Shown here: piece after piece, positions 12,300-37,922 of the stretch | Numbering within the stretch: position 1 is the stretch's first letter | Layout: the number at the start of each line of letters is the position of its first letter | Assembly: GCF_032884065.1 (NCBI RefSeq) | Contig: NC_088880.1 | Coordinates: forward strand, 23,684,715-23,748,714 | Source of the DNA: Artemia franciscana | Taxonomy: Eukaryota > Arthropoda > Branchiopoda > Anostraca > Artemiidae | DNA length: 64,000 nucleotides | Reading direction: 5' to 3' | The notes under the pieces: model-generated | Databases searched by the model: none | Told to the model about the DNA's origin: nothing | The model's input: only the letters and a program-made list of their open reading frames with translations | Made by a program: the position numbers and the translations under genes

Positions 12300-12903
12300 C
12301 CCCTCCCCGGGGACTGTGGGGGATTAAGTCGTCCCGAAAGACATAATTATTAGGTTTTTCGACTATGCTGAACGAAAATGACTATAATTTTGATCCGGTT
12401 TTTGGTAAACATGAGCGTGGGAGGGGGCCTAGGTGCGCTCCATTTTTTTGTCACTTAAAAAGAGCATTAGAACTTTTAATTTCCATTAAAATGAGCCCTC
12501 TCACGACATTCAAGGGCGATTGGATCGATACGATCAACCTGAAAAAATACACGCTTCGGGGATCTGTCTTCTGGCAAAAAATACAAAATTCAACATTTTT
12601 GTAGATAGGAGCTTGAAACTTCTACAGCAGGGTTATCTGATACGCTGAATCTGATGGTGTGATTTTCGTTAAGATTATATGACTTTTAATGGATGTCTTT
12701 CTCTATTTTCTAAACTAAGGCAAATTTTATAAGGTTTGCAACTTTTTATGAGTAAGACTAAACTTCATGAAACTTCTATATTTAAAATAATCATAAAAAC
12801 AAAATACTTTTAATGTAGCTATTGTTATCAAAATTCCATTTCTTAGGGTTTTGGTTACTATTGAGCCGGGTCACTCCTTACTACAGTTTGTTACCACGAA
12901 CTG
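12300..12903 (+). repeat. HER dispersed repeat, 3' portion
   Basis: It spans from the ccccgggg/actgtggggg segment to the terminal hairpin at 12884-12903, followed by TT. The 5' two-thirds are absent because the palindrome arm starts here. The mirror copy at 27015-28561 retains them. Confidence 0.85.
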
Positions 12904-13176
12904 TTCTATTCACTGCTTGTGTCCTCAAAGGGTGAGTATCGACAGGGATTGAGGGTAGCAAAACATATAAAGGAGGTCATCACAGTTTTTGAAAACCTTT
13001 GCCTGGTGGATAGCATACACGGTCACAAAAAAGAAAAAAAACGAAAACTATAACACAATAGCTAATACTTCCTGAGATTGGGCTTTAAAACTTAGAAGCT
13101 TTATAACAAATGTTACGTTATGAATTAAACTAAATTATTTTTTTTCTTTGAGATATTTATATAGCCATTATGCATT

Positions 13177-14584
13177 ATGCATCCCATTAGCCTAGGGACT
13201 CAAAAACTATCTCTCTTATTATTTGCAGATGATATTGCTTTAGTGGCTAATAAACCGTAAGATCTACAGACTCTTTTGAATCTCATAGAAGAATATTTGC
13301 AGATTCAAAATTAAGGCTGAATACTGAAAAGAGCGAAGTTGTTATTTTTAAAAAAAGGAGGGTTGGGGGCGATGAAAAATACACATTTAAATTTAATAAT
13401 AAGGAACTATTTATAAGTAAAGGAATAAAATATTTAGGCTTTATCTTATCGGATAATGGAAGCCTAAGGAGTCATGTTGATGAAATAATTAAGAGAGGTA
13501 GGGTGGCCATGTCAGCAATATTTAGAAACCCGACGATAATGGGGATTAAAAACCTAAAACTGCATAAAAGAATATTTAACACAAAAATTTTACCCGTGAT
13601 AGAATATGGAGCAGAAATATGGGGTGGAGAAACGGTGCAGCAACTGGAGTCCCTTCAGCTCCAGTATTATAAAAGAGTGTTTGGTCTACATCAGACAACT
13701 CATTCACAGATTCTGAAAGGTGATATGGGCCTGTTTTCTTTAAAGCTACGTAGGTATATTTTAATGCTTAGATTCTGGTCGAAGTTAACTAAGAGTAATG
13801 AAGATAGACTAGTAAGAGCGGCATATTAAGAGATGTTGAAATGTGGTTTAAAGACCTCGTGGCCATCCCAAATTAAATCATTACTAGAAAAGGTAGGAAT
13901 GCCTTATTTATGGAATAATGGTCTTTGCTCTAGTGATGTACCAACAAATTTAGAAAGCCAGGTACGATTTATATTAGAGAGTCGGGAAATTCAGCATTGG
14001 CAAGGGCTGGTTTTAGATTCTACAACCCTACAACATTATAATCAGGCAAAACCTAGTTTTGGAGAGGAAGTTTATTTTAAATTTAATTTACCGGCTATGA
14101 TTCTACGTCGTTGGATTCAGCTTAGGGCGAATTGTCTTCCAATCCAGAACAGGCAAAAAACTTTCGACAAAAATAAAATGATAGTTGGTCCTGATAGGCG
14201 GTATGTTTGTCCCCTTTGTAATGATGATGATGAAGACTTGGATCATTTTCTCCGGAAATGCCCGGTGCTCTTGGATTTACGGGAAATTTATTTGCATGAC
14301 ATTAATTTGATGCTTCCGGGTATTCTACAAAATAGTAACCCAACCACAATATTTCGAGTGGGAGTATACATAGATAAATCCTTAATAAGAAGAAAAAGTT
14401 TTATATGACTATTTTCTTTTGTTGATAGATTAGGCACTTTTTGTGTTGAATTCTATTTTTTGTGCGTGTTTGTAATTCGTACTGTTGTTAATTTCCTTGC
14501 TTGTTTGTTATTTATTTATATTTTTGTGTGTATATGGCCCATGGTTTTTTTAAATACACCTATCTATCTATCTATCTATCTATG
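13177..14584 (+). pseudogene. LINE RT C-terminal half (left arm copy)
   Basis: It opens with MHPISLGTQKLSLLLFADDI, where FADD is the RT catalytic box. It continues with the thumb/connection segment (KYLGFILSDNGSLRSHVDEI, YGAEIWG) and a C-terminal CCHC motif (C126, C129, H138, C143 of the last frame). Defects seen are a stop after VANKP, a frame change near 13310 and a TAA at 13827-13829. The 3' end is marked by six TATC units at 14560-14584. The endonuclease and N-terminal RT are missing, typical of 5' truncation. The clade is uncertain. Confidence 0.9.
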
Positions 14585-14757
14585 CATGAAGCTGGAAATC
14601 TAATTAAATTGGATTACTTCTCGACTACAATCGACTTCAATCGATCAGACTATGGAAAAGGGTATGTGTTAAGGAGAAGCGCAAGTTTCAAGCCGGAATA
14701 AGGGCGATTGAAACGATTGGGCCTAATCAGGCTCCGCGTTTGAAAGGGCCCCGTGCG

Positions 14758-15061
14758 ACCATCAAAATAAAAAATTGATTTTCAAAATTATAAAATGTTC
14801 TTAACAATTTCAGCAAGCGTTGCTTCTGGAGAGAGATCACTATCCAGGTTAAAACCAATTAAAAAAATAATATCAATAATAAATTTGGATAGACTAAATA
14901 GTTTAACAATCATGTTGAATGAAAGTGAAGACACGAGTAAAATAGACTCTAAAACTATTTTAGAAGCATTTGCTGAACAAAACTTTAAAAATATGTTAAT
15001 CCATGTGCCCATATTTGGTGATGTAAGTTTCAAAGAGCATTTTCAGCATGACATAAATTAA
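14758..15061 (+). pseudogene. hAT transposase C-terminal dimerisation fragment (left arm)
   Basis: The 88-codon frame MFLTISASVASGERSLSRLK plus IKKIISIINLDRLNSLTIML matches the hAT C-terminal dimerisation signature (ASxERSFSxLKxIKxxxRxxMxxxRLxxLxxI). A pyrimidine-poor 'ttaacaatttcag' precedes it and could be a former splice acceptor. The catalytic domain is absent. The mirror copy at 24857-25160 differs at six residues. Confidence 0.8.
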
Positions 15062-15074
15062 TGTTAACACAAAA

Positions 15075-15660
15075 TGAGTACAAAAAAGAACAAAAGAGGA
15101 CAAAACCGTAAGATAAAAATGGACAAACTGGACCATCAAATAAGACAAAATCAAGATGACGACCTGAGAAACGTAAATGTACTATGGGTGATCCATTAAA
15201 AGAGACAAAAACAAACCAAGCAACTAAACCAAAAGGCACTGAAATAATGTCTGAAGCAAGGATTAACGAATATAAAGATCAAAGAGATGTGTAGTTAAAA
15301 TATTAGCGAAAACTGACAATTAGAACAAGTCAAAAAAGAATATAAAGAATATAGAAATATGCATTTAAACGATAAATTGCAGCAAGAATCACAACGACTC
15401 AAAAACGAAAGGAAAGAACAAATGAAGAACAATATGCGCTTACAAGACATGTGACAATGCGGATCAGAACAAATAAAAATAAAATTGAAGAACAGAGAAA
15501 TGTGTGGTTAGAAGATATACGACCGAGAGAACAAAGAAGTATGCAGTTAGGAGATATTCGAAAGCGAGAATTATAAGCAACAGCAGGAATCTGAACTTCC
15601 CAAAGATCAACGTGAAGAACAAAGAATTGTAGGATTAGCAGACAGCTGTTAATGGACAGC
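15075..15660 (+). pseudogene. Degraded coiled-coil coding region, possibly Helitron N-terminal (left arm)
   Basis: Broken plus-strand frames give MSTKKNKRGQNRKIKMDK, LQQESQRLKNERKEQMKNN and QESELPKDQREEQRIVGLAD. They are rich in K, E, Q and R with heptad-like spacing. Repeated 'ExxxxRxxRLxDxR' phrases of this kind occur ahead of the Rep domain in many arthropod Helitron proteins, but composition alone is weak evidence. Many stops interrupt it. The opposite-strand 113-codon frame at 15399-15740 is taken as a shadow. Confidence 0.35.
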
Positions 15661-15828
15661 GAGAACCAGAACGAGTTAAAAATGAAAGTGTAGAAGAAAA
15701 AAGGATACTTGTGTCCATAACGGTACACACTACAGAACAACGCGGTTTTATCTGTCTGTATTAAGAGACAATAAGCTTACGCTCGGTGGAAAACAAGTAA
15801 TGGTTGACAGAATACATTGGACTTTAAT

Positions 15829-15969
15829 AATTTGGGCTATATGTTTTCACATTAAGGGGGCGGAGGTAAAGTACTTGAACTGCGTGATTAGAAAAAAATT
15901 TTTACTTGATGCAGACCTGCTATATTTTACCTCCCCCCCCCCTAATGTGTAAAAATATAGCCTAAATTT
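15829..15969. mobile_element. MITE, about 140 bp (left arm)
   Basis: Terminal inverted repeats of about 45 bp face each other. The left starts AATTTGGGCTATATG and runs to GGAGGTAAAGTA; the right is the inverse, ending ATAGCCTAAATT. The central 45 bp are unpaired. No transposase is present and the superfamily is unclear. Confidence 0.7.
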
Positions 15970-16051
15970 GTTTGTAAAGTATTATTTTTCATTATATTTT
16001 CGAATATTTCATTAGGATTGACCCGATTTCTCTTCTTGAGCATGTATCATT

Positions 16052-16394
16052 ATGAACCCAAGTACCGAAAAAAAATATTATGTACGAAGAATAGCTCCAT
16101 CACAATCTTTAATGCCAACAAATTGTGACATAAAATCCAGTAAAAACTTAAAAAGATGCTGTAAACTACGCAAGTATTATTTACAATTCATTGGGACGGC
16201 TTCAACGCTTCAACTCTGTATTTATTCACTATGGAGTCCTCTATTATCCCACAGGAAAAGTAACCAAACAAGATGATTTACTTGGGGGCTGCTACCTGCT
16301 TGGTCGAATTGCACTCCTGCATCAACAATTTCTAAATGAATTTGTTTGGTCTGTTATAGGACATCACTTGCTCTCTGAGGAGTTCCACAAATAA
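16052..16394 (+). other. Unrecognised overlapping short frames (left arm)
   Basis: Two overlapping plus-strand frames of 74 and 67 codons are preserved identically in the right arm (23524-23866). Base composition is slightly richer in GC than its surroundings. I recognise no domain. Preservation is explained by the recent palindrome and does not argue for function. Confidence 0.3.
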
Positions 16395-16399
16395 ATACG

Positions 16400-16612
16400 A
16401 AACTGGAACTCGTGTCTTGCTTTAGCCTCATTCAACGTAAGCGATGATCAACAAAAATAATCGTAAATTCTGGAACTCATGTCTTGCTTTAGCCTCATTC
16501 AACGTAAGCGATGACCTAGCCAAAAATAGTCGTAAGATCTGGAGCTCATGTCTTGCTTTAGCCTCATTCAACGCAAGCGATGACCAAACCAAAAATAGTC
16601 GTAAATAATTTC
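16400..16612. repeat. ~72-bp tandem repeat, three copies (left arm)
   Basis: The phrase 'tcttgctttagcctcattca' recurs three times at about 72-bp spacing, each followed by 'gcgatga'. Because the unit is a multiple of three, one frame repeats SCLALASFN.SDD with KNSRK linkers. This could be a coding repeat or a coincidence of the unit length. Confidence 0.75.
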
Positions 16613-16914
16613 AGCTTTAAAATAACTGGACAACTGATCCCAAAACCAATTTAGAAGCAAACCTATCAAAGACCCCCGAAGGTGATTTTGAACCCTATTC
16701 ATATAGCCAAATGTACTTTTTAAATCCCAATGGTGATGTTAAAGAACACCTTTCTCATCTTTTAAATTATTAGATGTATATATTTGCTTAAAAATTTAAT
16801 ATATAGAGGGGGACCCTAACAAAATTTCAATCATGTCCAATTCTGCAACTACAGAAGAGAGAATAATGAGGACTTCTTTCCCAAGACAGTGAATCAACAA
16901 AACCTCTTTGAATA

Positions 16915-16945
16915 TTTCGGCCCTATATCTAAGGGTCGTCTTCAG
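16915..16945 (-). ncRNA. Hammerhead-ribozyme-like motif (left arm)
   Basis: The minus strand reads CTGAAGA, a CCCT...AGGG hairpin, then CGAAA. This matches the CUGANGA - stem II - GAAA order of hammerhead ribozymes, which Penelope-like elements are known to carry. The first stem II pair is mismatched and stems I and III are short, so activity is doubtful. Confidence 0.35.
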
Positions 16946-17060
16946 CAAAGAAAATAATAAACAATAAAACACTTACAATAAAAGTTTTTGGTTAAAAATC
17001 CATTCTTTTTTTTAAGATAGCCTTGGCATCATTACTTCTTAACGAATTAAATAAAAAAAA

Positions 17061-18754
17061 CAAGTTTTTTCAACTGAAAGTAAGGAGTGACATCAAAACT
17101 TAAAACGCACAGAAATTACTTCGTATATGAAAGAGGCTGCTTCCTCATCAACGCCCCGCTCTTTACGCTAAAGTTTGACTCTTTCTCTCAATTCTTCTTT
17201 CTAAAACAGTAAAAAACTTTAGCGTAAAGAGCGGGGCGTTGATGAGGAAGCAGCCTCTTTCATATACGAAGTAATTTCTGTGCGTTTTAAGTTTTGATGT
17301 CACTCCTTACTTTCAGTTGAAAAAACTTGTTTTTTTTATTTAATTTCTGAACGTTTTTGAATCAATGCATGTTTTGATTTTGGCTCTCCGCAGAGGAATA
17401 ATCAAAACGAAATTTGCATATTTTTTTTTGGCTCAATGACTTTCTCATAATTTTGATCGAATGATTTTGAGAAAAAAAGAGCGGGGGACGAAGCCTAGTT
17501 GCCCCCCGATTTTTTGGTTAATTAAAAAGGCAACTAGAACTTTTAATTTTTTACGAATCTTTTTATTGGTAAAAGATTTACGTAACTTATAAATTAGCTT
17601 ACGTAAAGAACTTTTGTATTCTCATGTTTTTATTACATATATGAGGGGATTCGCCCCATCGTCAGTACCTCGCTCTTTACACTAAAGCTTAAATTTTATC
17701 CCAATTCATTAAGAATGACCCCCTAAATCACAAAATTCGTAGAATAAGTAGTTGAAATTACCGAAAATACTTTAGCGTAAAGAGCGAGGTATTAGAAGGA
17801 GGTGAGCCCCTCATATGGGTAATAATTTCTGTTTGTTTTAAGTTTTATTGCTGTTCCTTACTTCCAGCTGAAAAAGCTTTTTCACTTTTTTTTTTAATTG
17901 TTTTTTTTTTAAATAATGCTAGTAAATCCTGCTCTCCCTTCATGGAAATTTTCTTCTCCCATTACAAATTCTCGAAGGAAAGTTCCCCCAGCATATCCCC
18001 CTCTTCTCAACCCCTCCCCCAAACCAAAAAAATCCTCCTGAAAACGCCTGTATACTTCCCAATAACCATTACTATATGTAAGCACAGGTCAAAGTTTGTA
18101 ACTTGTTGCCCCTCCCACGGGGACTGTGGGGGAGTAAGTCGTCCCCAAAGACATAGTTATAAGGTTTTTCGACTACGCTGAATAAAATGGCTATCTCAGA
18201 ATTTTGATCCGTTGACTTTGGGAAAATAATTAGCGTGGGAGGGGGCCTAGGTGCCCTCCAATTTTTTTGGTCACTTAAAAAGGGCACTAGAACTTTTCAT
18301 TTCCGTTAGAATGAGCCCTCTTGCAAGATTCTAGGACAACTGGGTCGATACGATCACCCCTGGGGAAAAAAAAACACAAAAAAACAAAAAAACAAATAAA
18401 CACGCATCCGTGATCTGCCTTCTGGCAAAAAATGCAAAATTCCACATTTTTGTAGATAGGAGCTCGAAACTTCTACAGTAGGGTTCTCTGATACGCTGAA
18501 TCTGATGGTGTGATTTTCGTTAAGATTCTATGACTTTTAGGGGGCGTTTCCCCCTATTTTCTAAAATAACGCAAATTTTCTCAGGCTCGTAACTTTTGAT
18601 GGGTAAGACTAAACTTGATGAAACTTATATATTTAAAACCAGCATTAAAATGCGATTCTTTTGATGTAGCTATTGGTATCAAAATTCCATTTTTTAGAGT
18701 TTTGGTTACTATTGAGCCGGGTCGCTCCTTACTACAGTTCGTTACCACGAACTG
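17061..18754 (+). repeat. HER dispersed repeat, complete reference copy (left arm)
   Basis: In order it holds: a 270-bp near-perfect foldback (17061-17331) starting CAAGTTTTTTCAACTGAAAG; a ttctagttgcc/gggcaactag module; a second foldback around the 'gcgtaaagagcgaggta' motif (17640-17830); a third module with 'ccaaagacatagttataagg' and 'gggccctaggtgccctcc'-like text; the 'cgcatccgtgatctg' segment; and finally the GTCGCTCCTTACTA inverse repeat and the 20-bp hairpin at 18735-18754, followed by TT. No protein is encoded. Confidence 0.85.
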
Positions 18755-18836
18755 TTTGAAAGTTCAGCCAAGATTGTGTGATAAAAGCTAAAATTTTACA
18801 AGCTAAAAAAGTTCATTCATTGAACTAACAGTATTT

Positions 18837-19228
18837 ATTAAAAATTGGAATAATTTCTTATTGCGATATTTGCCTTCTCTGCAGCTAATCTTGTAGTTCT
18901 TTTGGGATTGGGCTTGTTTTTATTCCTTCCTATTTATGTTTTATTTTGAATTAGATTATTTTCTTTAATTAATTTTGTGTACATAGGGTTGATTGTGTAT
19001 TCACCCAAGTCTCTATTTAGGGATGTATTATTATTTAAGTTTCGTTTGATTGCGATTGCCTCGCGGACAGTCTGTTTGATTCCTAGGTCATTGTTAATTA
19101 GAATTGTTTCGTCAAATAGAACATAATGGTTTGGATTTAAAAAAATACGATTGCTTAAAGCTGAATCGAAAGATATTGAGTTATTTTTAGATTTTAATGC
19201 TTTTTCAATACTTTCTTTGTGTTGCTGT
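18837..19228 (-). pseudogene. Penelope-like element, C-terminal tail, piece 1
   Basis: The minus-strand frame reads LQQHKESIEKALKSKNNSIS and, further on, REAIAIKRNLNNN and LNRDLGEYTINPMYTKL. This is the end of a Penelope-like GIY-YIG protein (RLxxH, then REAIxIxK...LNRDxG). It is a fragment placed back to back with the next piece. Confidence 0.8.
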
Positions 19229-19570
19229 AAATCCCAAATGCACAATTTACCTACCTTATATTCCCATAATTACTTCAAAACTGAAAAAAGTTTGTTTAAA
19301 AACAATTTACGTGTTGTATTCACAAGTAATTTAAGTATAATGAGTCTTCTCAATTCTGGTAAGGATAAAACCCCAGTTACTCGTCTAAGAGGGGTGTATC
19401 AAATACCATGCAGTTGTGGAAATTATTACATTGGTCGAACCCACCAAAACTTAGGAACAAGATTACAGCAACACAAAGAAAGTATTGAAAAAACATTAAA
19501 ATATAGAAATAACTCCATATCTTTCGATTAAGTTTTAAGCAATTATATTTTTGAAAATCCAAACCATTAA
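19229..19570 (+). pseudogene. Penelope-like element, GIY-YIG head, piece 2
   Basis: The plus-strand frame holds GVYQIPCSCGNYYIGRT and GTRLQQHKESI, which are the GIY-YIG catalytic block, the CxC cysteines and the conserved R/H. The piece begins at the same junction used by the central copy (atcccaaatgcac) and runs into the inverted tail that follows. Confidence 0.85.
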
Positions 19571-19843
19571 GTTCAATTAGATTATTTTCTGTAATATAGG
19601 GTTGATTGTGTATTCACCCAAGTCTCTATTTAAGGATGTATTATTATTTAAGTTTCGTTTTATTTCGATTGCCTCACAGACAGTATGTTTGATTCCTAGG
19701 TCATTGCTAATTAGAATTGTTTCGTCAAATAGAACTTAATGGTTTGGATTTTCAAAAATATAATTGCTTAAAACTTAATCGAAAGATATGGAGTTATTTC
19801 TAGATTTTAATGCTTTTTCAATACTTTCTTTGTGTTGCTGTAA
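19571..19843 (-). pseudogene. Penelope-like element, tail, piece 3
   Basis: A second inverted copy of the C-terminal tail, ending at the palindrome spacer. Pieces 1-2 and pieces 3-4 are direct repeats of about 610 bp, each consisting of an inverted tail plus a forward head. Confidence 0.8.
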
Positions 19844-20075
19844 ATCCCAAATGCACAATTTACCTACCTTATATTCCCATAATTACTTCAAAACTGAAAA
19901 AAGTTTGTTTAAAAACAATTTACGTGTTGTATTCACAAGTAATTTAAGTATAATGAGTCTTCTCAATTCTGGTAAGGATAAAACCCCAGTTACTCGTCTA
20001 AGAGGGGTGTATCAAATACCATGTAGTTGTGGAAATTATTACATTGGTCGAACCCACCAAAACTTAGGAACAAGA
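19844..20075 (+). repeat. Palindrome spacer (unpaired centre)
   Basis: 232 bp lie between the two arms. They are the only single-copy part of the palindrome and encode the GIY-YIG core in the plus orientation. The same sequence also appears within each arm (19229-19460 forward, 20459-20690 reverse). Confidence 0.9.
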
Positions 20076-20347
20076 TTACAGCAACACAAAGAAAGTATTG
20101 AAAAAGCATTAAAATCTAGAAATAACTCCATATCTTTCGATTAAGTTTTAAGCAATTATATTTTTGAAAATCCAAACCATTAAGTTCTATTTGACGAAAC
20201 AATTCTAATTAGCAATGACCTAGGAATCAAACATACTGTCTGTGAGGCAATCGAAATAAAACGAAACTTAAATAATAATACATCCTTAAATAGAGACTTG
20301 GGTGAATACACAATCAACCCTATATTACAGAAAATAATCTAATTGAA
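19844..20347 (+). pseudogene. Penelope-like element, head plus tail, central piece
   Basis: This is the longest stretch in natural order. It contains the GIY-YIG block (GVYQIPCSCGNYYIGRT), then RLQQHKESIEKALKSRNN, then the REAI-like/LNRDLGEYTINP tail. It is a broken remnant of the element's last ~165 codons and lacks the RT domain. Known biology of the family: RT plus GIY-YIG endonuclease, with frequent partial tandem or inverted copies. Confidence 0.85.
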
Positions 20348-20690
20348 CTTAATGGTTTGGATTTTCAAAAATATAATTGCTTAAAACTTAATCGAAAGAT
20401 ATGGAGTTATTTCTAGATTTTAATGCTTTTTCAATACTTTCTTTGTGTTGCTGTAATCTTGTTCCTAAGTTTTGGTGGGTTCGACCAATGTAATAATTTC
20501 CACAACTGCATGGTATTTGATACACCCCTCTTAGACGAGTAACTGGGGTTTTATCCTTACCAGAATTGAGAAGACTCATTATACTTAAATTACTTGTGAA
20601 TACAACACGTAAATTGTTTTTAAACAAACTTTTTTCAGTTTTGAAGTAATTATGGGAATATAAGGTAGGTAAATTGTGCATTTGGGATTT
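20348..20690 (-). pseudogene. Penelope-like element, GIY-YIG head, piece 5
   Basis: Mirror of piece 2 (19229-19570). It encodes GVYQIPCSCGNYYIGRT on the minus strand. Confidence 0.85.
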
Positions 20691-21082
20691 ACAGCAACAC
20701 AAAGAAAGTATTGAAAAAGCATTAAAATCTAAAAATAACTCAATATCTTTCGATTCAGCTTTAAGCAATCGTATTTTTTTAAATCCAAACCATTATGTTC
20801 TATTTGACGAAACAATTCTAATTAACAATGACCTAGGAATCAAACAGACTGTCCGCGAGGCAATCGCAATCAAACGAAACTTAAATAATAATACATCCCT
20901 AAATAGAGACTTGGGTGAATACACAATCAACCCTATGTACACAAAATTAATTAAAGAAAATAATCTAATTCAAAATAAAACATAAATAGGAAGGAATAAA
21001 AACAAGCCCAATCCCAAAAGAACTACAAGATTAGCTGCAGAGAAGGCAAATATTGCAATAAGAAATTATTCCAATTCTTAAT
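20691..21082 (+). pseudogene. Penelope-like element, C-terminal tail, piece 6
   Basis: Mirror of piece 1. It encodes LQQHKESIEKALKSKNNSIS, the LNRDLGEYTINP block and a basic end (NKNKPNPKRTTRL). Confidence 0.8.
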
Positions 21083-21163
21083 AAATACAGTTAATTCAAT
21101 GAATGAACCTTTTTAGCTTGTAAAATGTTAGCTTTTATCACACAGTCTTGGCTGAACTTTCAA

Positions 21164-22857
21164 ACAGTTCGTGGTAACGAACTGTAGTAAGGAGCGACCC
21201 GGCTCAATAGTAACCAAAACTCTAAAAAATGGAATTTTGATACCAATAGCTACATCAAAAGAATCGCATTTTAATGCTGGTTTTAAATATATAAGTTTCA
21301 TCAAGTTTAGTCTTACCCATCAAAAGTTACGAGCCTGAGAAAATTTGCGTTATTTTAGAAAATAGGGGGAAACGCCCCCTAAAAGTCATAGAATCTTAAC
21401 GAAAATCACACCATCAGATTCAGCGTATCAGAGAACCCTACTGTAGAAGTTTCGAGCTCCTATCTACAAAAATGTGGAATTTTGCATTTTTTGCCAGAAG
21501 GCAGATCACGGATGCGTGTTTATTTGTTTTTTTGTTTTTTTGTGTTTTTTTTTCCCCAGGGGTGATCGTATCGACCCAGTTGTCCTAGAATGTTGCAAGA
21601 GGGCTCATTCTAACGGAAATGAAAAGTTCTAGTGCCCTTTTTAAGTGACCAAAAAATTGGAGGGCACCTAGGCCCCCTCCCACGCTAATTATTTTCCCAA
21701 AGTCAACGGATCAAAATTCTGAGATAGCCATTTTATTCAGCGTAGTCGAAAAACCTTATAACTATGTCTTTGGGGACGACTTACTCCCCCACAGTCCCCG
21801 TGGGAGGGGCAACAAGTTACAAACTTTGACCTGTGCTTACATATAGTAATGGTTATTGGGAAGTATACAGGCGTTTTCAGGAGGATTTTTTTGGTTTGGG
21901 GGAGGGGTTGAGAAGAGGGGGATATGCTGGGGGAACTTTCCTTCGAGAATTTGTAATGGGAGAAGAAAATTTCCATGAAGGGAGAGCAGGATTTACTAGC
22001 ATTATTTAAAAAAAAAACAATTAAAAAAAAAAGTGAAAAAGCTTTTTCAGCTGGAAGTAAGGAACAGCAATAAAACTTAAAACAAACAGAAATTATTACC
22101 CATATGAGGGGCTCACCTCCTTCTAATACCTCGCTCTTTACGCTAAAGTATTTTCGGTAATTTCAACTACTTATTCTACGAATTTTGTGATTTAGGGGGT
22201 CATTCTTAATGAATTGGGATAAAATTTAAGCTTTAGTGTAAAGAGCGAGGTACTGACGATGGGGCGAATCCCCTCATATATGTAATAAAAACATGAGAAT
22301 ACAAAAGTTCTTTACGTAAGCTAATTTATAAGTTACGTAAATCTTTTACCAATAAAAAGATTCGTAAAAAATTAAAAGTTCTAGTTGCCTTTTTAATTAA
22401 CCAAAAAATCGGGGGGCAACTAGGCTTCGTCCCCCGCTCTTTTTTTCTCAAAATCATTCGATCAAAATTATGAGAAAGTCATTGAGCCAAAAAAAAATAT
22501 GCAAATTTCGTTTTGATTATTCCTCTGCGGAGAGCCAAAATCAAAACATGCATTGATTCAAAAACGTTCAGAAATTAAATAAAAAAAACAAGTTTTTTCA
22601 ACTGAAAGTAAGGAGTGACATCAAAACTTAAAACGCACAGAAATTACTTCGTATATGAAAGAGGCTGCTTCCTCATCAACGCCCCGCTCTTTACGCTAAA
22701 GTTTTTTACTGTTTTAGAAAGAAGAATTGAGAGAAAGAGTCAAACTTTAGCGTAAAGAGCGGGGCGTTGATGAGGAAGCAGCCTCTTTCATATACGAAGT
22801 AATTTCTGTGCGTTTTAAGTTTTGATGTCACTCCTTACTTTCAGTTGAAAAAACTTG
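21164..22857 (-). repeat. HER dispersed repeat, complete (right arm)
   Basis: Mirror of 17061-18754, with the hairpin at 21164-21183 and the 5' foldback at 22587-22857. The two are nearly identical. Confidence 0.85.
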
Positions 22858-22972
22858 TTTTTTTTATTTAATTCGTTAAGAAGTAATGATGCCAAGGCTA
22901 TCTTAAAAAAAAGAATGGATTTTTAACCAAAAACTTTTATTGTAAGTGTTTTATTGTTTATTATTTTCTTTG

Positions 22973-23003
22973 CTGAAGACGACCCTTAGATATAGGGCCG
23001 AAA
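22973..23003 (+). ncRNA. Hammerhead-ribozyme-like motif (right arm)
   Basis: Mirror of 16915-16945: CTGAAGA, a CCCT/AGGG hairpin, CGAAA. The flanks TTTG and CAAAG could pair as a short outer stem. Confidence 0.35.
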
Positions 23004-23305
23004 TATTCAAAGAGGTTTTGTTGATTCACTGTCTTGGGAAAGAAGTCCTCATTATTCTCTCTTCTGTAGTTGCAGAATTGGACATGATTGAAATTTTGTT
23101 AGGGTCCCCCTCTATATATTAAATTTTTAAGCAAATATATACATCTAATAATTTAAAAGATGAGAAAGGTGTTCTTTAACATCACCATTGGGATTTAAAA
23201 AGTACATTTGGCTATATGAATAGGGTTCAAAATCACCTTCGGGGGTCTTTGATAGGTTTGCTTCTAAATTGGTTTTGGGATCAGTTGTCCAGTTATTTTA
23301 AAGCT

Positions 23306-23518
23306 GAAATTATTTACGACTATTTTTGGTTTGGTCATCGCTTGCGTTGAATGAGGCTAAAGCAAGACATGAGCTCCAGATCTTACGACTATTTTTGGCT
23401 AGGTCATCGCTTACGTTGAATGAGGCTAAAGCAAGACATGAGTTCCAGAATTTACGATTATTTTTGTTGATCATCGCTTACGTTGAATGAGGCTAAAGCA
23501 AGACACGAGTTCCAGTTT
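23306..23518. repeat. ~72-bp tandem repeat, three copies (right arm)
   Basis: Mirror of 16400-16612. Confidence 0.75.
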
Positions 23519-23523
23519 CGTAT

Positions 23524-23866
23524 TTATTTGTGGAACTCCTCAGAGAGCAAGTGATGTCCTATAACAGACCAAACAAATTCATTTAGAAATTGTTGATGCA
23601 GGAGTGCAATTCGACCAAGCAGGTAGCAGCCCCCAAGTAAATCATCTTGTTTGGTTACTTTTCCTGTGGGATAATAGAGGACTCCATAGTGAATAAATAC
23701 AGAGTTGAAGCGTTGAAGCCGTCCCAATGAATTGTAAATAATACTTGCGTAGTTTACAGCATCTTTTTAAGTTTTTACTGGATTTTATGTCACAATTTGT
23801 TGGCATTAAAGATTGTGATGGAGCTATTCTTCGTACATAATATTTTTTTTCGGTACTTGGGTTCAT
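23524..23866 (-). other. Unrecognised overlapping short frames (right arm)
   Basis: Mirror of 16052-16394, with both predicted peptides unchanged. Confidence 0.3.
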
Positions 23867-23948
23867 AATGATACATGCTCAAGAAGAGAAATCGGGTCAA
23901 TCCTAATGAAATATTCGAAAATATAATGAAAAATAATACTTTACAAAC

Positions 23949-24089
23949 AAATTTAGGCTATATTTTTACACATTAGGGGGGGGGGAGGTAAAATATAGCA
24001 GGTCTGCATCAAGTAAAAAATTTTTTCTAATCACGCAGTTCAAGTACTTTACCTCCGCCCCCTTAATGTGAAAACATATAGCCCAAATT
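23949..24089. mobile_element. MITE, about 140 bp (right arm)
   Basis: Mirror of 15829-15969, with the same ~45-bp terminal inverted repeats. Confidence 0.7.
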
Positions 24090-24257
24090 ATTAAAGTCCA
24101 ATGTATTCTGTCAACCATTACTTGTTTTCCACCGAGCGTAAGCTTATTGTCTCTTAATACAGACAGATAAAACCGCGTTGTTCTGTAGTGTGTACCGTTA
24201 TGGACACAAGAATCCTTTTTTCTTCTACACTTTCATTTTTAACTCGTTCTGGTTCTC

Positions 24258-24843
24258 GCTGTCCATTAACAGCTGTCTGCTAATCCTACAATTCTTTGTT
24301 CTTCACGTTGATCTTTGGGAAGTTCAGATTCCTGCTGTTGCTTATAATTCTCGCTTTCGAATATCTCCTAACTGCATACTTCTTTGTTCTCTCGGTCGTA
24401 TATCTTCTAACCACACATTTCTCTGTTCTTCAATTTTATTTTTATTTGTTCTGATCCGCATTGTCACATGTCTTGTAAGCGCATATTGTTCTTCATTTGT
24501 TCTTTCCTTTCGTTTTTGAGTCGTTGTGATTCTTGCTGCAATTTATCGTTTAAATGCATATTTCTATATTCTTTATATTCTTTTTTGACTTGTTCTAATT
24601 GTCAGTTTTCGCTAATATTTTAACTACACATCTCTTTGATCTTTATATTCGTTAATCCTTGCTTCAGACATTATTTCAGTGCCTTTTGGTTTAGTTGCTT
24701 GGTTTGTTTTTGTCTCTTTTAATGGATCACCCATAGTACATTTACGTTTCTCAGGTCGTCATCTTGATTTTGTCTTATTTGATGGTCCAGTTTGTCCATT
24801 TTTATCTTACGGTTTTGTCCTCTTTTGTTCTTTTTTGTACTCA
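24258..24843 (-). pseudogene. Degraded coiled-coil coding region (right arm)
   Basis: Mirror of 15075-15660. The same broken K/E/Q-rich frames are present. Confidence 0.35.
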
Positions 24844-24856
24844 TTTTGTGTTAACA

Positions 24857-25160
24857 TTAATTTATGTCATGCTGAAAATGCTCTTTGAAACTTACATCAC
24901 CAAATATGGGCGCATGGATTAACATATTTTTAAAGTTTTGTTCAGCAAATGCTTCTAAAATGGATTTAGAGTCTATTTTCCTTGTGTCTTCACTTTCATT
25001 CAACATGATTGTTAAACTATTTAGTCTATCCAAATTTATTATTGATATTATTTTTTTAATTTGTTTTAACATGGAAAGTGATCTCTCTCCAGAAGCAACG
25101 CTTGGTGAAATTGTTAAGAACATTTTATAATTTTGAAAATCAATTTTTTATTTGATGGTC
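24857..25160 (-). pseudogene. hAT transposase C-terminal fragment (right arm)
   Basis: Mirror of 14758-15061 (SVASGERSLSMLKQIKKI). It differs from the left copy at six of 88 residues, more than the neighbouring LINE. Confidence 0.8.
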
Positions 25161-25332
25161 GCACGGGGCCCTTTCAAACGCGGAGCCTGATTAGGCCCAA
25201 TCGTTTCAATCGCCCTTATTCCGGCTTGAAACTTGCGCTTCTCCTTAACACATACCCTTTTCCATAGTCTGATCGATTGTAGTCGATTGTAGTCGAGAAG
25301 TAATCCAATTTAATTAGATTTCCAGCTTCATG

Positions 25333-26741
25333 CATAGATAGATAGATAGATAGATAGGTGTATTTAAAAAAACCATGGGCCATATACACACAAAAATATA
25401 AATAAATAACAAACAAGCAAGGAAATTAACAACAGTACGAATTACAAACACGCACAAAAAATAGAATTCAACACAAAAAGTGCCTAATCTATCAACAAAA
25501 GAAAATAGTCATATAAAACTTTTTCTTCTTATTAAGGATTTATCTATATATACTCCCACTCGAAATATTGTGGTTGGGTTACTATTTTGTAGAATACCCG
25601 GAAGCATCAAATTAATGTCATGCAAATAAATTTCCCGTAAATCCAAGAGCACCGGGCATTTCCGGAGAAAATGATCCAAGTCTTCATCATCATCATTACA
25701 AAGGGGACAAACATACCGCCTATCAGGACCAACTATCATTTTATTTTTGTCGAAAGTTTTTTGCCTGTTCTGGATTGGAAGACAATTCGCCCTAAGCTGA
25801 ATCCAACGACGTAGAATCATAGCCGGTAAATTAAATTTAAAATAAACTTCCTCTCCAAAACTAGGTTTTGCCTGATTATAATGTTGTAGGGTTGTAGAAT
25901 CTAAAACCAGCCCTTGCCAATGCTGAATTTCCCGACTCTCTAATATAAATCGTACCTGGCTTTCTAAATTTGTTGGTACATCACTAGAGCAAAGACCATT
26001 ATTCCATAAATAAGGCATTCCTACCTTTTCTAGTAATGATTTAATTTGGGATGGCCACGAGGTCTTTAAACCACATTTCAACATCTCTTAATATGCCGCT
26101 CTTACTAGTCTATCTTCATTACTCTTAGTTAACTTCGACCAGAATCTAAGCATTAAAATATACCTACGTAGCTTTAAAGAAAACAGGCCCATATCACCTT
26201 TCAGAATCTGTGAATGAGTTGTCTGATGTAGACCAAACACTCTTTTATAATACTGGAGCTGAAGGGACTCCAGTTGCTGCACCGTTTCTCCACCCCATAT
26301 TTCTGCTCCATATTCTATCACGGGTAAAATTTTTGTGTTAAATATTCTTTTATGCAGTTTTAGGTTTTTAATCCCCATTATCGTCGGGTTTCTAAATATT
26401 GCTGACATGGCCACCCTACCTCTCTTAATTATTTCATCAACATGACTCCTTAGGCTTCCATTATCCGATAAGATAAAGCCTAAATATTTTATTCCTTTAC
26501 TTATAAATAGTTCCTTATTATTAAATTTAAATGTATATTTTTCATCGCCCCCAACCCTCCTTTTTTTAAAAATAACAACTTCGCTCTTTTCAGTATTCAG
26601 CCTTAATTTTTTATCTGCAAATATTCTTCTATGAGATTCAATAGAGTCTGTAGATCTTGCGGTTTATTAGCCACCAAAGCAATATCATCTGCAAATAATA
26701 AGAGAGATAGTTTTTGAGTCCCTAGGCTAATGGGATGCATA
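25333..26741 (-). pseudogene. LINE RT C-terminal half (right arm copy)
   Basis: Mirror of 13177-14584. The 108- and 191-residue pieces are identical to the left copy. One difference matters: the codon after VANKP is CAA here but TAA in the left arm, so that stop arose after the arms separated. The frame change and the TAA between the two pieces are shared, so they predate the duplication. Confidence 0.9.
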
Positions 26742-27014
26742 ATGCATAATGGATATATAAATATCTCAAAGAAAAAAAATATTTAGTTTAATTCATAACA
26801 TACCATTCGTTATAAAGCTTCTAAGTTTTAAAGTCCAGTCTCAGGAAGTATTATCTATTGTGTTATAGTTTTCGTTTTTTTTTTCTTTTTTGTGACCGTC
26901 TACGCTATCCACCAGGCAAAGATCTTCAGAAACTGCGATGATCTCCTTTGTATTTTTTGCTACCCTCAATTCCTGTGGACGCTCACCCTTTGAGGACACA
27001 AACAGTGAATAGAA

Positions 27015-28561
27015 CAGTTCGTGGTAACAAACTGTAGTAAGGAGTGACCCGGCTCAATAGTATACAAAACTCTAAGAAATGGAATTTTGATAACAATAGT
27101 CACTAAAAAAGTATTTTGTTTTTATGATTATTTTAAATATAGAAGTTTCATGAAGTTTAGTCTTACTCATAAAAAGTTGCAAACCTTATAAAATTTGCCT
27201 TAGTTTAGAAAATAGAGAAAGACATCCATTAAAAGTCATATAATCTTAACGAAAATCACACCATCAGATTCAGCGTATCAGATAACCCTGCTGTAGAAGT
27301 TTCAAGCTCCTATCTACAAAAATGTTGAATTTTGTATTTTTTGCCAGAAGACAGATCCCCGAAGCGTGTATTTTTTTTTCAGGTTAATCGTATCGACCCA
27401 ATCGCCCTATAATGTCGTGAGAGGGTTCATTTTAATGGAAATTAAAAGTTCTAATGCTCTTTTTAAGTGACCAAAAAATCGGAAGGCACCTAGGCCCCAT
27501 CCCACACTCATGTTTACCAAAAACCGGATCAAAATTATAGTCATTTTCTTTCAGCATAGTCGAAAAACCTAATAATTATGTCTTTCGGGACGACTTACCC
27601 CGGGGACGAGTCCCCGGGGAGGGGCTGCAAGTTACAAACTTTGACCATTGTTTAAATATAGTAATGGTTATTGGGATGTGTACAGACGCTTTCAGGGGAA
27701 CTTTTTCATGTTGACGGGGGGGGGGGGGGAGTTACGTGGGAGGGGGTTGTGGGGAGGGTATTTCTATGGAGGAATTTATCATGAGGGAAGAGAATTTCCA
27801 TGACGGGGCGCAGTATTTTTTATAATAAGTTAAATAAAGCTAAAGTTAATAAAAACAACAAGAAAATGAACAAAAGTTTTTCAGCTGGAAGCAAGGAGCA
27901 GCATTAAAACCTAAAGCGAAAAAAAATTATTACGTATATAAGGGGGTTCGTCCCCTCCACAATACCTTGCTCTTTACGCTAAAGTATTTTTAGTAATTTC
28001 AACTATTTATTCTACGGCCTTTGTGATTCAGGGGTCATTCTTATGTCCCAAGAATTGGGACAGAATTCAAACTTTAGTGCGAAGAGTGAGGTATTGACGA
28101 GGGGGTGAACCCTTTCATATGCACAATCAAAAAAATATATAAATTTAGAAGTTCGTATAGTAAGTTAATTCGTGACTTATTTATATTTATTACTAATAAA
28201 AACCTTCATAAAAAAAGTTCTAGTTGTATTTTTAAGTAGCCAAAAATTGGAAGGCAAATAGGCCTCCCCCCCCATGCCTTTTTTATCAAATCGTCCGATC
28301 AAAAATATGAGAAAGCCACTTAGCCAAAAAAAATAATATGCAAATTTCATTCAAGTGCGGTAAACAAAAATCAAAACATGCAGTAATTAATAATTATTAG
28401 CTGAAGTTTCTTATTGTTTTAAAAAGTAGAGTTGTGAGAAAGAGTCAAACTTTAGCGTAAAGAGCGGGGCGTTGAGAAGGGGAAAATCCTTATATATACA
28501 GAATAATTTCTGTTCGTTACAAGTTTTAATGTGGCACCTTACTTGCAGTTAAATAAACTTG
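27015..28561 (-). repeat. HER dispersed repeat, nearly full
   Basis: The hairpin (one mismatch) is at 27015-27034, then the usual modules in reverse. It ends in CTTG at 28558-28561 before a T-rich/ATTTAAT tail. Only one arm of the 5' foldback remains. The palindrome boundary falls within it at about 27626. Confidence 0.85.
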
Positions 28562-33850: not shown

Positions 33851-33914
33851 GATTCGGTTGAAACCGTCTTGCGTTCAGCTTAGACGTGCATTATTTTGCA
33901 TTAGACGTGCATTA

Positions 33915-36900
33915 CACTGGCAAAATTTTTTGAAAGAATACACATTTTTTGGACGGGCTGCAAAATTCTTCTTGCAAGCTACATTAACGCGTGTCGGATA
34001 AGTGATTCCTTAAAGTCGATAAAATGCTGCCAACAGAGCAGAAAAAAAGAGAAAGACAACTGAAGTAATTGAAAAACCAACATTTTATTCATTTCTGATA
34101 AATTGAAACTGAAAATAAAAAATCTCATTTTTACCTTCTATTCAGTTTCATATTCGAATTCTTAATATTGTTACTATGTTTTGCTAAATGTAGCTTGTTC
34201 GCTGCACTATGCAAACTAGCCCATCTTTGACCCACCTGGCACTTCCAACACTGGCACTAGCAGGAAAACCGTTGGAGCAACATTGCTACCCGAGGGGAAA
34301 GTTCCCGTGTAAGGTTTTAACGCATGTGTAAGGTTATATAAGGTCATGTAAGGTTGTGTGAAGCTCATGTCTAAGGCTCCTCACATCTTAATTTAGCATA
34401 GTATAAAAACTGTGTGAGTATAATTAAACCAAGATGTATTTTGGAAGTCTTTCTACCCTGGGAAAGATACTAAGATCTGAGTCTTTGTGTGGTACCACAT
34501 AAGGTTTTCTGTGAGTGACTGTAATATACTAACTGCAAAAAACTAAAAAACTAAAATAAACCACCAAAGCGCTATCAAACAAGTCATTTAAATACAATAT
34601 GTCCATAGATTAACAGTTACACTCATCCTGGTGAGTGGCAGTGGCGTCAATTCACAAAAACTTAGGGGGAAAAGAAAAGTGCATTTTTCAATACCTAGGG
34701 GGGAGGGCAAAATTGCTGTTTTTACATGTTTACCAAAAAACGTATTTTCAATGATAACACCCCAAAAAAGTGCTTTCCAAAATCTAAGGATGGGCAAAGA
34801 ACGAAAGGGAACAGACACCCCTGTCCCCTCCAATTTACGCCACCACTGGGTGAGAAGTTGAACATAATTGTTTCCTTTTTCATCCTGCATATAGAAATTT
34901 ACCGAAGCATCTTCGAAATGTTATGAGATTAGAACCTACCACAAATCCATTGTTTTATTGGTGTTCTGTTTCCAAAAGAATAAAAGGTTTTTTTCAGCAT
35001 AAAATTAAGTCTTTGCTATTCAAAATCCGTGTCTCAACAGTAATACCGTATCAAGAATTTTGTTTGAGACAGGGGGTAAAAAAAAAGTTAAAACAATCTG
35101 TGTTACGTTTTTAGGAGTCGGACAATTTCTGTTTTGAGGGGGGATAAAAACTGGTAACCATCCCCCCTGAATAGTGTTTGACTCAGTATTATGGTTGTAA
35201 TAAGGGAAGAAAAAAATTGTCAGATAATGGCAAAACAAGAAATTAAAAGAGCGGCAGCAAAAATGCCATCGTATGTTTTTCAAGTTTTTCAGGATTTGGA
35301 GTTTTTGACTAGTTTTTGCAATTTCTCGAATCGAGCAATTCTTGTTGAAACTTTGGCATAGTGAAATCCAAGAATAAGCCTGTTGGTAAAACTTTTTTAC
35401 GAATATTCTTGAAATAATTTGTAATTTTTTTTTCTTTCATGAAAACTTTTAAAGATTTTTTTAGAACATACATGGTGGTTAACTTCTAAAGAACTGAAAA
35501 GGGTTATTAAACACATAAAAAAAGACATCATACCAGCCTTAAGTATGGTTAAGACAAACATTACTGTAATTAGTGATTCCAAACTTAGTGATTTGAAAAG
35601 CCATTGTCTTCTTCCTGGGACCAATTTTTTTACGTAGTGTAGTTTTTTGCGGATTTTTCATTAATTTTAAAACTGCTCCATACGAAAGAACTCCAAAGGA
35701 AAAAAACCTTCAGGGGCGTCGTTTCGGTGGCAAGAGGGTGGGTGCAGCTGACCCTCCCAGTAATGTGGAGAAAAAAATGATTATATAACACATGCCGCCT
35801 GAATATTGGGATATGGACCCCTCTTGCCCCCTCCCCCAAATAAAATTATGGAGATTCGCTCCTGATTTCCCTGAAGAAAACTTCCCATTATTTCTTGTAG
35901 GGTCAATTTTTCTTCTTCTATTTTGAAATTGTTTGTCAGGGAATGCTTCTAATTGAATAAATGAATAATTAAAACATTTTATTCAATTGAATAATTTTAA
36001 TTGTAATAATTATAATAGCAATAATTCTATAATAATTCTATAATGACTAATTGTAATAATTTCAATAATTCTTGAATCTTATTGAATATTCCTCAGAAAA
36101 TATGGCTAACTTGCATAGCACGTGAGTAAATACTGAACGCGAATAACAATCAATTGAGATATAAAAATTTGAAGGGATTAGCTCTATCCGGTGGTCTTAT
36201 AAACTTCGGAAAGAGCTCACTGGATTGTTAATCAGAAGTTTTAGTGAGCTTTTTGAGATTCAGAGTGATGGGAGGGTGAATATCCCCCCTTACACCTCGT
36301 ATTTTCCCAAAATACATCTGATAGAAATGTACAAAATACATCTGAAAGAAACCAGTTTTTATCCCCCCTCAAAACAGAAATTGTCCGACTCCTAAAAACG
36401 TAACACAGATTGTTTTAACTTTTTTTTATCCCCTGTCTCAAACAAAATTCTTGATACGATATTACTGTTGAGACACGGATTTTGAATAGCAAAGACTTAA
36501 TTTTATGCTGAAAAAACTTTTTATTCTTTTGGAAACAGAACACCAATAAAACAATGGATTTGTGGTAGGTTTTAATCTCATAACATTTCGAAGATGCTTC
36601 GGTAAATTTCTATATGCAGGATGAAAAAGGAAACAATTATGTTCAACTTCTCACCCAGTAGTGGCGTAAATTGGAGGGGACAGGGGTGTCTGTGCCCTTT
36701 AGTTCTTTGCCCACCCTTAGATTTTGGAAAGCACTTTTTTTGGGGTATTATCATTGAAAATACGTTTTTTGGTAAACATGTAAAAACAGCAATTTTGCCC
36801 TCCCCCCTAGGTATTGAAAAATGCACTTTTCTTTTCCCCCTAAGTTTTCATGAATTGACGCCTCTGCCACTCACCAGGATGAGTGTAACTGTCAATCTAT

Positions 36901-37590
36901 GGACATATTGTATTTAAATGACTTGTTTGATAGCGCTTTGGTGGTTTATTTTAGTTTTTTAGTTTTTTGCAGTTAGTATATTACAGTCACTCACAGAAAA
37001 CCTTATGTGGTACCACACAAAGACTCAGATCTTAGTATCTTTCCCAGGGTAGAAAGACTTCCAAAATACATCTTGGTTTAATTATACTCACACAGTTTTT
37101 ATACTATGCTAAATTAAGATGTGAGGAGCCTTAGACATGAGCTTCACACAACCTTACATGACCTTATATAACCTTACACATGCGTTAAAACCTTACACGG
37201 GAACTTTCCCCTCGGGTAGCAATGTTGCTCCAACGGTTTTCCTGCTAGTGCCAGTGTTGGAAGTGCCAGGTGGGTCAAAGATGGGCTAGTTTGCATAGTG
37301 CAGCGAACAAGCTACATTTAGCAAAACATAGTAACAATATTAAGAATTCGAATATGAAACTGAATAGAAGGTAAAAATGAGATTTTTTATTTTCAGTTTC
37401 AATTTATCAGAAATGAATAAAATGTTGGTTTTTTAATTACTTCAGTTGTCTTTCTCTTTTTTTCTGCTCTGTTGGCAGCATTTTATCGACTTTAAGGAAT
37501 CACTTATCCGACACGCGTTAATGTAGCTTGCAAGAAGAATTTTACAGCACGTCCAAAAAATGTGTATTCTTTCACAAAATTTTGCCAGTG
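33915..37590. mobile_element. 3.7-kb element with 1.24-kb terminal inverted repeats
   Basis: The arms 33915-35155 and 36351-37590 are reverse complements; paired positions sum to 71505 from end to end. The ends read CACTGGCAAAATTTT at the left and its inverse at the right. The 1.2-kb interior has no recognisable transposase and includes an AATAATT-rich part (35940-36080) and a HER-like module (36170-36330). CACTGG termini would suit the CACTA/Mirage/Chapaev group, but I see no clear target duplication (ATTA left, TGAA right). The element lies in intron 1. Confidence 0.75.
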
Positions 37591-37922
37591 TGAAATACAT
37601 TTTTGGTGCAAAATTAAAAAAATACTTTGCTTTATCTCTTTGGCACTATCTTCTCACAAACTTCCATGGGCTGTCACTCGCTTTCACTCCACAAAGTAAA
37701 CTCCAATCTAAGGATTATAATTCACAATGTCTCGCAAAAATCAAATATTCAAAAATATATAACCAATTGTATTTATAAAACTAAAAATAAAATTAAATAG
37801 AGCACAAGACCTCTGTGGCACGGAATAAGCAGAGAGAGGGGGCGTCTCAGGGCCCAGACCCTTTAAATTTCTACTTCGTTCCAAATTTATGTTCATTTCT
37901 TATTCAAAACTAAATTAAAAAA
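37591..37922. other. Unassigned intron stretch
   Basis: AT-rich sequence with no recognisable feature. Confidence 0.35.

Follow-up and report, generated by a model that had tools for sequence, protein, structure and literature searches.

A palindrome in Artemia franciscana centred on inverted pieces of a Penelope-like element, with a probable origin by fold-back

Introduction

In the brine shrimp Artemia franciscana, pieces of a single protein domain are found in alternating orientation at the centre of a long palindrome. The pieces lie at 18837..21082 of the window, which in this paper is the whole stretch of 64,000 nucleotides analyzed on contig NC_088880.1 (positions 23,684,715 to 23,748,714, forward strand). 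An initial annotation, made from the sequence letters, offered two possible mechanisms: template switching during retrotransposition, or a DNA snap-back event that seeded the palindrome. How were these pieces produced, and how is their arrangement related to the palindrome around them?

Organization of the palindrome centre

The centre is built from one GIY-YIG domain in two parts, a head of 232 nt (L) and a tail (T). The domain was assigned to PF01541 with E values of 2.1e-6 and 1.1e-6 in two profile searches, above the curated cut-off. When the tail alone was used in the Pfam search, no match was returned. The tails are of two types, A and B, and the pieces are arranged as T- L+ t+ T- L+ T+ t- L- T+. 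The initial annotation gave the larger pieces in this order and orientation; it missed two short partial tails between them (t+ and t-, 112 nt each). The pieces and junctions are as follows.

18837..19230, minus strand: T1, A-type tail of the GIY-YIG domain
19231..19462, plus strand: L1, head copy, linked to T1 via junction J
19463..19574, plus strand: t+, first 112 nt of the B-type tail, with 2 differences from T3
19574/19575: junction K', the mirror of K, in the left arm
19575..19843, minus strand: T2, B-type tail (13-nt deletion, stop codon), linked via J to the central L
19844..20075, plus strand: central head copy L (232 nt), which forms the loop of the palindrome and is not itself palindromic
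20076..20344, plus strand: T3, B-type tail, native continuation of the central L
20344/20345: junction K, two B-type tails joined tail-to-tail
20345..20456, minus strand: t-, first 112 nt of the B-type tail, identical to T3
20457..20688, minus strand: L3, head copy, linked to T4 via J
20689..21082, plus strand: T4, A-type tail, open until the stop codon

The A-type pair, T1 and T4, is identical at 392 of 394 positions, and both tails read open as far as the stop codon. T2 and T3 are identical at 269 of 269 positions, and both carry the stop codon and the 13-nt deletion relative to the A type. Over 248 ungapped positions, tail A and tail B have 16 differences; these begin at position 44, after 43 identical bases. 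Among the three L copies, one site of 232 varies. The two direct-repeat units of about 610 bp that had been described from the letters are indeed present, with a spacing of 613 bases.

Junction J leads from a tail on the minus strand to a head on the plus strand, and reads CTGTAA followed directly by ATCCCAAATGCAC. It occurs exactly three times in the window, in agreement with the common junction named earlier. Allowing up to 3 mismatches adds no further site in the window, where 100 shuffles gave 0.03 matches on average. Comparison with family copies indicates an overlap of at most one base at J. At K, inspection by eye gave no clear overlap between the two sides. Both J and K hold PLE (Penelope-like element) sequence only.

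Arms, flanks, and inserted repeats

The palindrome has a total length of 15.3 kb with arms of about 7.55 kb each. Arm identity is 98.9% over 7,554 columns, with 70 mismatches (76 in a second alignment). The 3' end of the PLE continues past 18837..21082 in both directions, and is broken on each side by a dispersed repeat of 1.7 kb. The arms and the outer parts of the element are listed below.

12300..19843, plus strand: left palindrome arm, ending at 12300 within a truncated dispersed repeat beside a degenerate tandem array
16846..17046, minus strand: PLE 3' end beyond the inserted repeat
17047..18758, plus strand: 1.7-kb dispersed repeat inside the PLE 3' region
18759..18836, minus strand: PLE 3' region continuing from T1
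20076..27624, minus strand: right palindrome arm, whose outer repeat copy runs past the arm to about 28579
21083..21160, plus strand: PLE 3' region continuing from T4
21161..22871, minus strand: 1.7-kb dispersed repeat, mirror copy
22872..23072, plus strand: PLE 3' end, mirror copy

The segment 18760-18836 was considered as host flank and rejected, since its sequence is PLE 3' region. Host flank X is present on either side of the centre, while the far end of tail B and its flank are absent, as a fold-back predicts. The arrangement that marks a fold-back inversion was found here, with the 232-nt L as the loop, the inverted tails as the stem, and flank X on both sides. Within the flank, 15050-16840 is about 100% identical between the arms. 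Its other matches in the genome, among the best 40 of 3,878 candidates, reach at most 89% (a 55-base piece), or 71-80% when longer than 500 bases. The right side looks native because the outer repeat copy of the right arm extends past the arm. The stop of the left arm at 12300, where the right-hand repeat continues, points to the left arm as the new copy.

The 1.7-kb repeat, which may be a Helentron-like non-autonomous element, occurs in seven other regions of the window besides 17047-18758 and the mirror copy. Whole or partial copies are 74-93% alike, the mirror copy aside. The repeat has a short hairpin (CAGTTCGTGGTAACGAACTG) near one end; at the opposite end lies an inverted repeat of 132 nt. 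The search for known RNAs, including the hammerhead ribozyme, gave no Rfam match at gathering score in the window; sub-threshold miRNA-like matches at 17104-17286 and in the mirror sit on the repeat's own hairpin. By eye, the repeat is also present in or adjoining the 3' regions of PLE copies at loci L008, L011, and L016.

Each arm also carries one decayed 3' end of a non-LTR retrotransposon (13254-14408 and the mirror 25509-26663), with a weak zf-RVT match (E 0.00049, under the curated cut-off) and an ATCT microsatellite next to it. In the few arm ORFs scanned, the recognized content was transposon remains only. Elsewhere in the window, a second long inverted repeat is present at 33914-34993 and 36511-37591, with arms of about 1.1 kb that are 97-99% complementary and a spacer of 1.5 kb. 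At 54143-55273, in the most G+C-rich part of the window, a 269-base unit is repeated in tandem about 4 times.

The parent element family

The window itself holds only the GIY-YIG end of a PLE. The DNA of L plus tail B was searched in the A. franciscana assembly (1.27 Gb, 6,468 contigs). The search gave 1,806 first-look candidates, and family copies are spread over many contigs. The best 40 candidates were scored and gave 47 matches, 6 of them at the studied locus. Nineteen other loci (L005-L023) were inspected, which are the best-matching copies rather than a random sample. In the copy L012, an ORF at 688-2067 matches both RVT_1 (E 1.2e-10) and GIY-YIG (E 3.8e-6). Together with the PF01541 match in the window, this ORF bears out the Penelope-like domain proposed in the initial annotation. 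By these sequence matches, the parent is identified as an abundant endonuclease-containing PLE with reverse transcriptase (RT) and GIY-YIG in one ORF. The solved-structure search with the RT gave one RNA-directed DNA polymerase, a weak match (E 0.00042); with the window piece, the sole match was a chance-like one to a corepressor domain. A distant PLE copy at locus L026 (G000:C1:60073934), about 77% like the studied family over 150 bases, seems to represent a second related family.

Related loci were also looked for in two further collections. In viral_contigs, the DNA pattern gave 0 matches and the protein was found in none of 75 stretches; in genome_contigs, none of 552 stretches was related. 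This is expected because the element is an animal one.

Junction J upstream of L was absent in 19 of the 19 other copies. Just before L, 10 copies have GATTCGAATA and 8 have a one-base variant of it, while L008 is different. The family sequence is lost within 60 bases in L018 and L019. In 6 of the 19 (L007, L010, L014, L015, L016, and L023), an inverted 3' piece abuts a 5'-truncated sense copy within at most 8 bases. The positions of the inverted piece differ among these six, and the 5' ends are variable. The head-to-head arrangement is thus not special within this family. An inverted piece that does not abut is present in L020 and, by eye, in L011. In the six composites no inverted repeat was found past the element end near +913, with about 46-843 nt of flank covered and L023 too short for this comparison. 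The sense copy of L016 has its own 3' end broken by the 1.7-kb dispersed repeat. L010 and L016 lie on different scaffolds and have different inverted-piece ends, but their 5' truncation points, about 317 bases upstream of the head, almost coincide. The common truncation point is possibly a hotspot for the jump.

Single-locus junctions and private mutations

The junctions were then searched for in the whole assembly. J was found exactly three times, every time at the studied locus. With up to 3 mismatches there were 208 matches, against 136 for a reversed control. All 13 other matches with 1 or 2 mismatches (L024-L036) were inspected and none had an inverted tail; 12 of them had no PLE match, and the match in L026 lies in native head sequence. 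A 24-base pattern with the usual head start of the family, allowing up to 3 mismatches, gave only the three known sites. K was found exactly twice, as mirror images, only at the studied locus; two other matches, with 3 mismatches each, are on other contigs. A propagating rearranged element was rejected, as J and K are single-locus in the assembly. The result favours a local event, and it supports the earlier proposal of one initial rearrangement that was then copied.

Private mutations tell which pieces share a recent history. Seven substitutions are common to the L copies of the window and absent in 19 of the 19 other copies. Similarly, t, T2, and T3 have four B-type states in common, of which the one at position 68 is present in 0 of 19 other copies, and those at positions 71, 82, and 108 in 1 of 19 each. 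The nearest copy elsewhere to L plus tail B is 95% identical, among the best 40 of the 1,806 candidates. Because the duplicated pieces have locus-private mutations in common and the nearest other copy is at this distance, the most likely course is local copying of one piece from another, at the DNA level and once the insertion was already decaying. Departures from the family majority over 262 columns number 8 in tail A and 18 in tail B, with 1 in common. Such counts are as expected if the two tails decayed separately since insertion. It is also possible that tails A and B came from two different source RNAs instead of one insertion that diverged.

Arm divergence

The divergence between the arms is bimodal, at either about 4-7% or 0.1-0.2%. 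The arms differ at 53 of 1,100 positions in 12300-13400, at 9 of 249 in 14761-15010, and at 7 of 100 in 18771-18870. These three patches, whose limits were set after viewing the data, hold 69 mismatches in 1,449 positions, against 7 in 6,092 elsewhere. In 20,000 simulations with 42 random differences over 13000-19843, a gap of 2,364 bases was obtained in 0 and a cluster of 7 in 92 bases in 9. When the 25 differences beyond 13400 were simulated, such a gap was obtained in 6 and such a cluster in 0. This pattern suggests an old palindrome that was mostly homogenized by gene conversion.

Proposed order of events

The observations are probably best explained by one head-to-head PLE insertion and two later DNA fold-backs, the first at K and the second around L as the loop, with gene conversion afterwards. 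The PLE would have inserted once, head-to-head, as an inverted 3' piece (tail A), junction J, and a 5'-truncated sense copy (L and tail B). A break in tail B would have followed, the end folding back, or fusing with a sister, at K, and copying would have run outward from K, across L, J, and tail A and on into the flank. After another break, on the left side of L, the stub of tail A would have annealed to tail B with the 232-nt L as the loop. The right arm would then have been copied outward until it was joined to other sequence at 12300. Finally, arm-to-arm gene conversion would have homogenized most of the palindrome. The exact J with a B-type tail behind it, as seen at 19843/19844, is reproduced by this order because the first 43 bases of the two tails are identical. 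The timing of all events is blurred by conversion within the palindrome.

The putative fold-backs were examined by a symbolic search. The starting order was X A- L+ b+ c+ Y, where b and c are parts of tail B and Y is the other flank. Fold-backs only were allowed, at any module boundary and on either side, with the modules cut at the observed junctions. None of the 42 one-step products equals the observed order. With two steps exactly one path was found, a right-hand fold-back at K and then a left-hand fold-back with the L loop. Two starts without an inverted tail gave no path within two fold-back steps. Given these two restrictions, the search speaks for sufficiency and economy and is not a proof.

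Each proposed step is of a known kind. In yeast, inverted repeats near breaks fold back or dimerize (PMC6103520), divergent and widely spaced repeats can fold back in single-stranded DNA (PMC10164571), and hairpins with large loops occur along with secondary rearrangements (PMC7467729). The last report also describes fold-back inversions as stabilized by secondary rearrangements, whereas only one candidate rearranged end, at 12300, is present at the Artemia locus; this counts against the fold-back reading. The two mechanisms offered in the initial annotation seem both to have been involved, in turn: the head-to-head type of J is common in the family (6 of 19), and for J, K, and the flank the duplication is snap-back-like.

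Discussion

Could reverse transcription have produced the whole centre? All central pieces could come from repeated self-priming or template jumps of the PLE RT on two variant RNAs, the palindrome having formed later and independently. PLEs do form inverted and partial-tandem composites, for which self-priming was proposed in the part of the Adineta vaga study that concerns them (PMC3846280), and K and J comprise PLE sequence only. However, this account requires a source copy with both the L-private and the B-private changes, and the nearest other copy among the best 40 of the 1,806 candidates is only 95% identical. The private changes that the duplicated pieces have in common also speak against it, and it does not account for the exact coincidence of the palindrome axis with the array, or for the same flank on either side. 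We consider it unlikely. Breakage and fusion may instead have involved two chromatids: sister chromatids broken in tail B, after 269 and 112 nt of the tail, would have been end-joined at K to give an inverted dimer, and later annealing of tails between sisters would have given the axis. Since K has no clear homology between its sides, such an end fusion fits K as well as a snap-back does. In yeast, inverted repeats with 1-kb spacers are described as annealing mainly between molecules (PMC6103520). An interstitial palindrome in a 37-Mb scaffold would nevertheless require further rescue events. The product of this route, which we consider unlikely, is the same as that of a snap-back, and the sequence alone cannot separate the two.

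The centre might also be an assembly artefact, caused by adapters overlooked in PacBio reads or by chimeras that folded back in vitro. The source assembly does rest partly on PacBio Sequel reads, with a contig N50 of 383 kb, according to its description (PMC11492255). Patchy arm divergence with long identical runs between the patches speaks against an error at the read level, the left arm stops inside a repeat that runs on at the right, and the central 232 nt are non-palindromic, unlike an adapter turn-round. An artefact is accordingly considered very improbable. Fold-back after a head-to-head insertion is the account preferred here.

The locus ties the inverted composites of PLEs, a puzzling feature of these elements, to a palindrome of flanking DNA, and private mutations make the order of events at the locus readable. 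A broader proposal can be put forward only tentatively, and we regard it as rather doubtful: head-to-head PLE insertions would provide genomes with inverted repeats already in place, their loops a few hundred bases long, and these would recurrently seed fold-back palindromes or local inverted duplications, and the present locus would be one preserved two-round case. Were such seeding to recur, the brine shrimp genome would gain inverted duplications continually from this abundant PLE family. Among the matches listed in the open-licence literature, no description of a palindrome seeded by a Penelope element was found, and no title there concerned Penelope elements of Artemia.

Comparison with known systems shows which features are familiar. 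The endonuclease PLEs of Adineta vaga, as far as they are described in the relevant part of PMC3846280, likewise have RT and GIY-YIG in one ORF, 5'-truncated copies, and head-to-head inverted pieces with variable junctions. Unlike the composites described there, the Artemia composite has flanking host DNA arranged around it as a palindrome, and its own pieces went through a further duplication. In the six other head-to-head copies of Artemia, the inverted repeat ends at or within the element (46-843 nt of flank). Human Y palindromes with arm-to-arm gene conversion, in the account of PMC3723533, resemble the present one in that the arms are kept alike, in Artemia as a mosaic of highly identical and divergent stretches; in contrast, the Artemia palindrome is 15 kb long, and the few arm ORFs scanned gave recognizable transposon remains only. 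There is also a likeness in architecture to the fold-back inversions of yeast as these are characterized in PMC7467729, PMC6103520, and PMC10164571, where the flank is an inverted duplication about a non-duplicated loop, the loop is bounded by a pre-existing inverted repeat, and divergent repeats are tolerated. Unlike the yeast cases, the Artemia locus is natural, apparently old, and interstitial, with two probable nested rounds and a head-to-head retrotransposon insertion as the probable seed.
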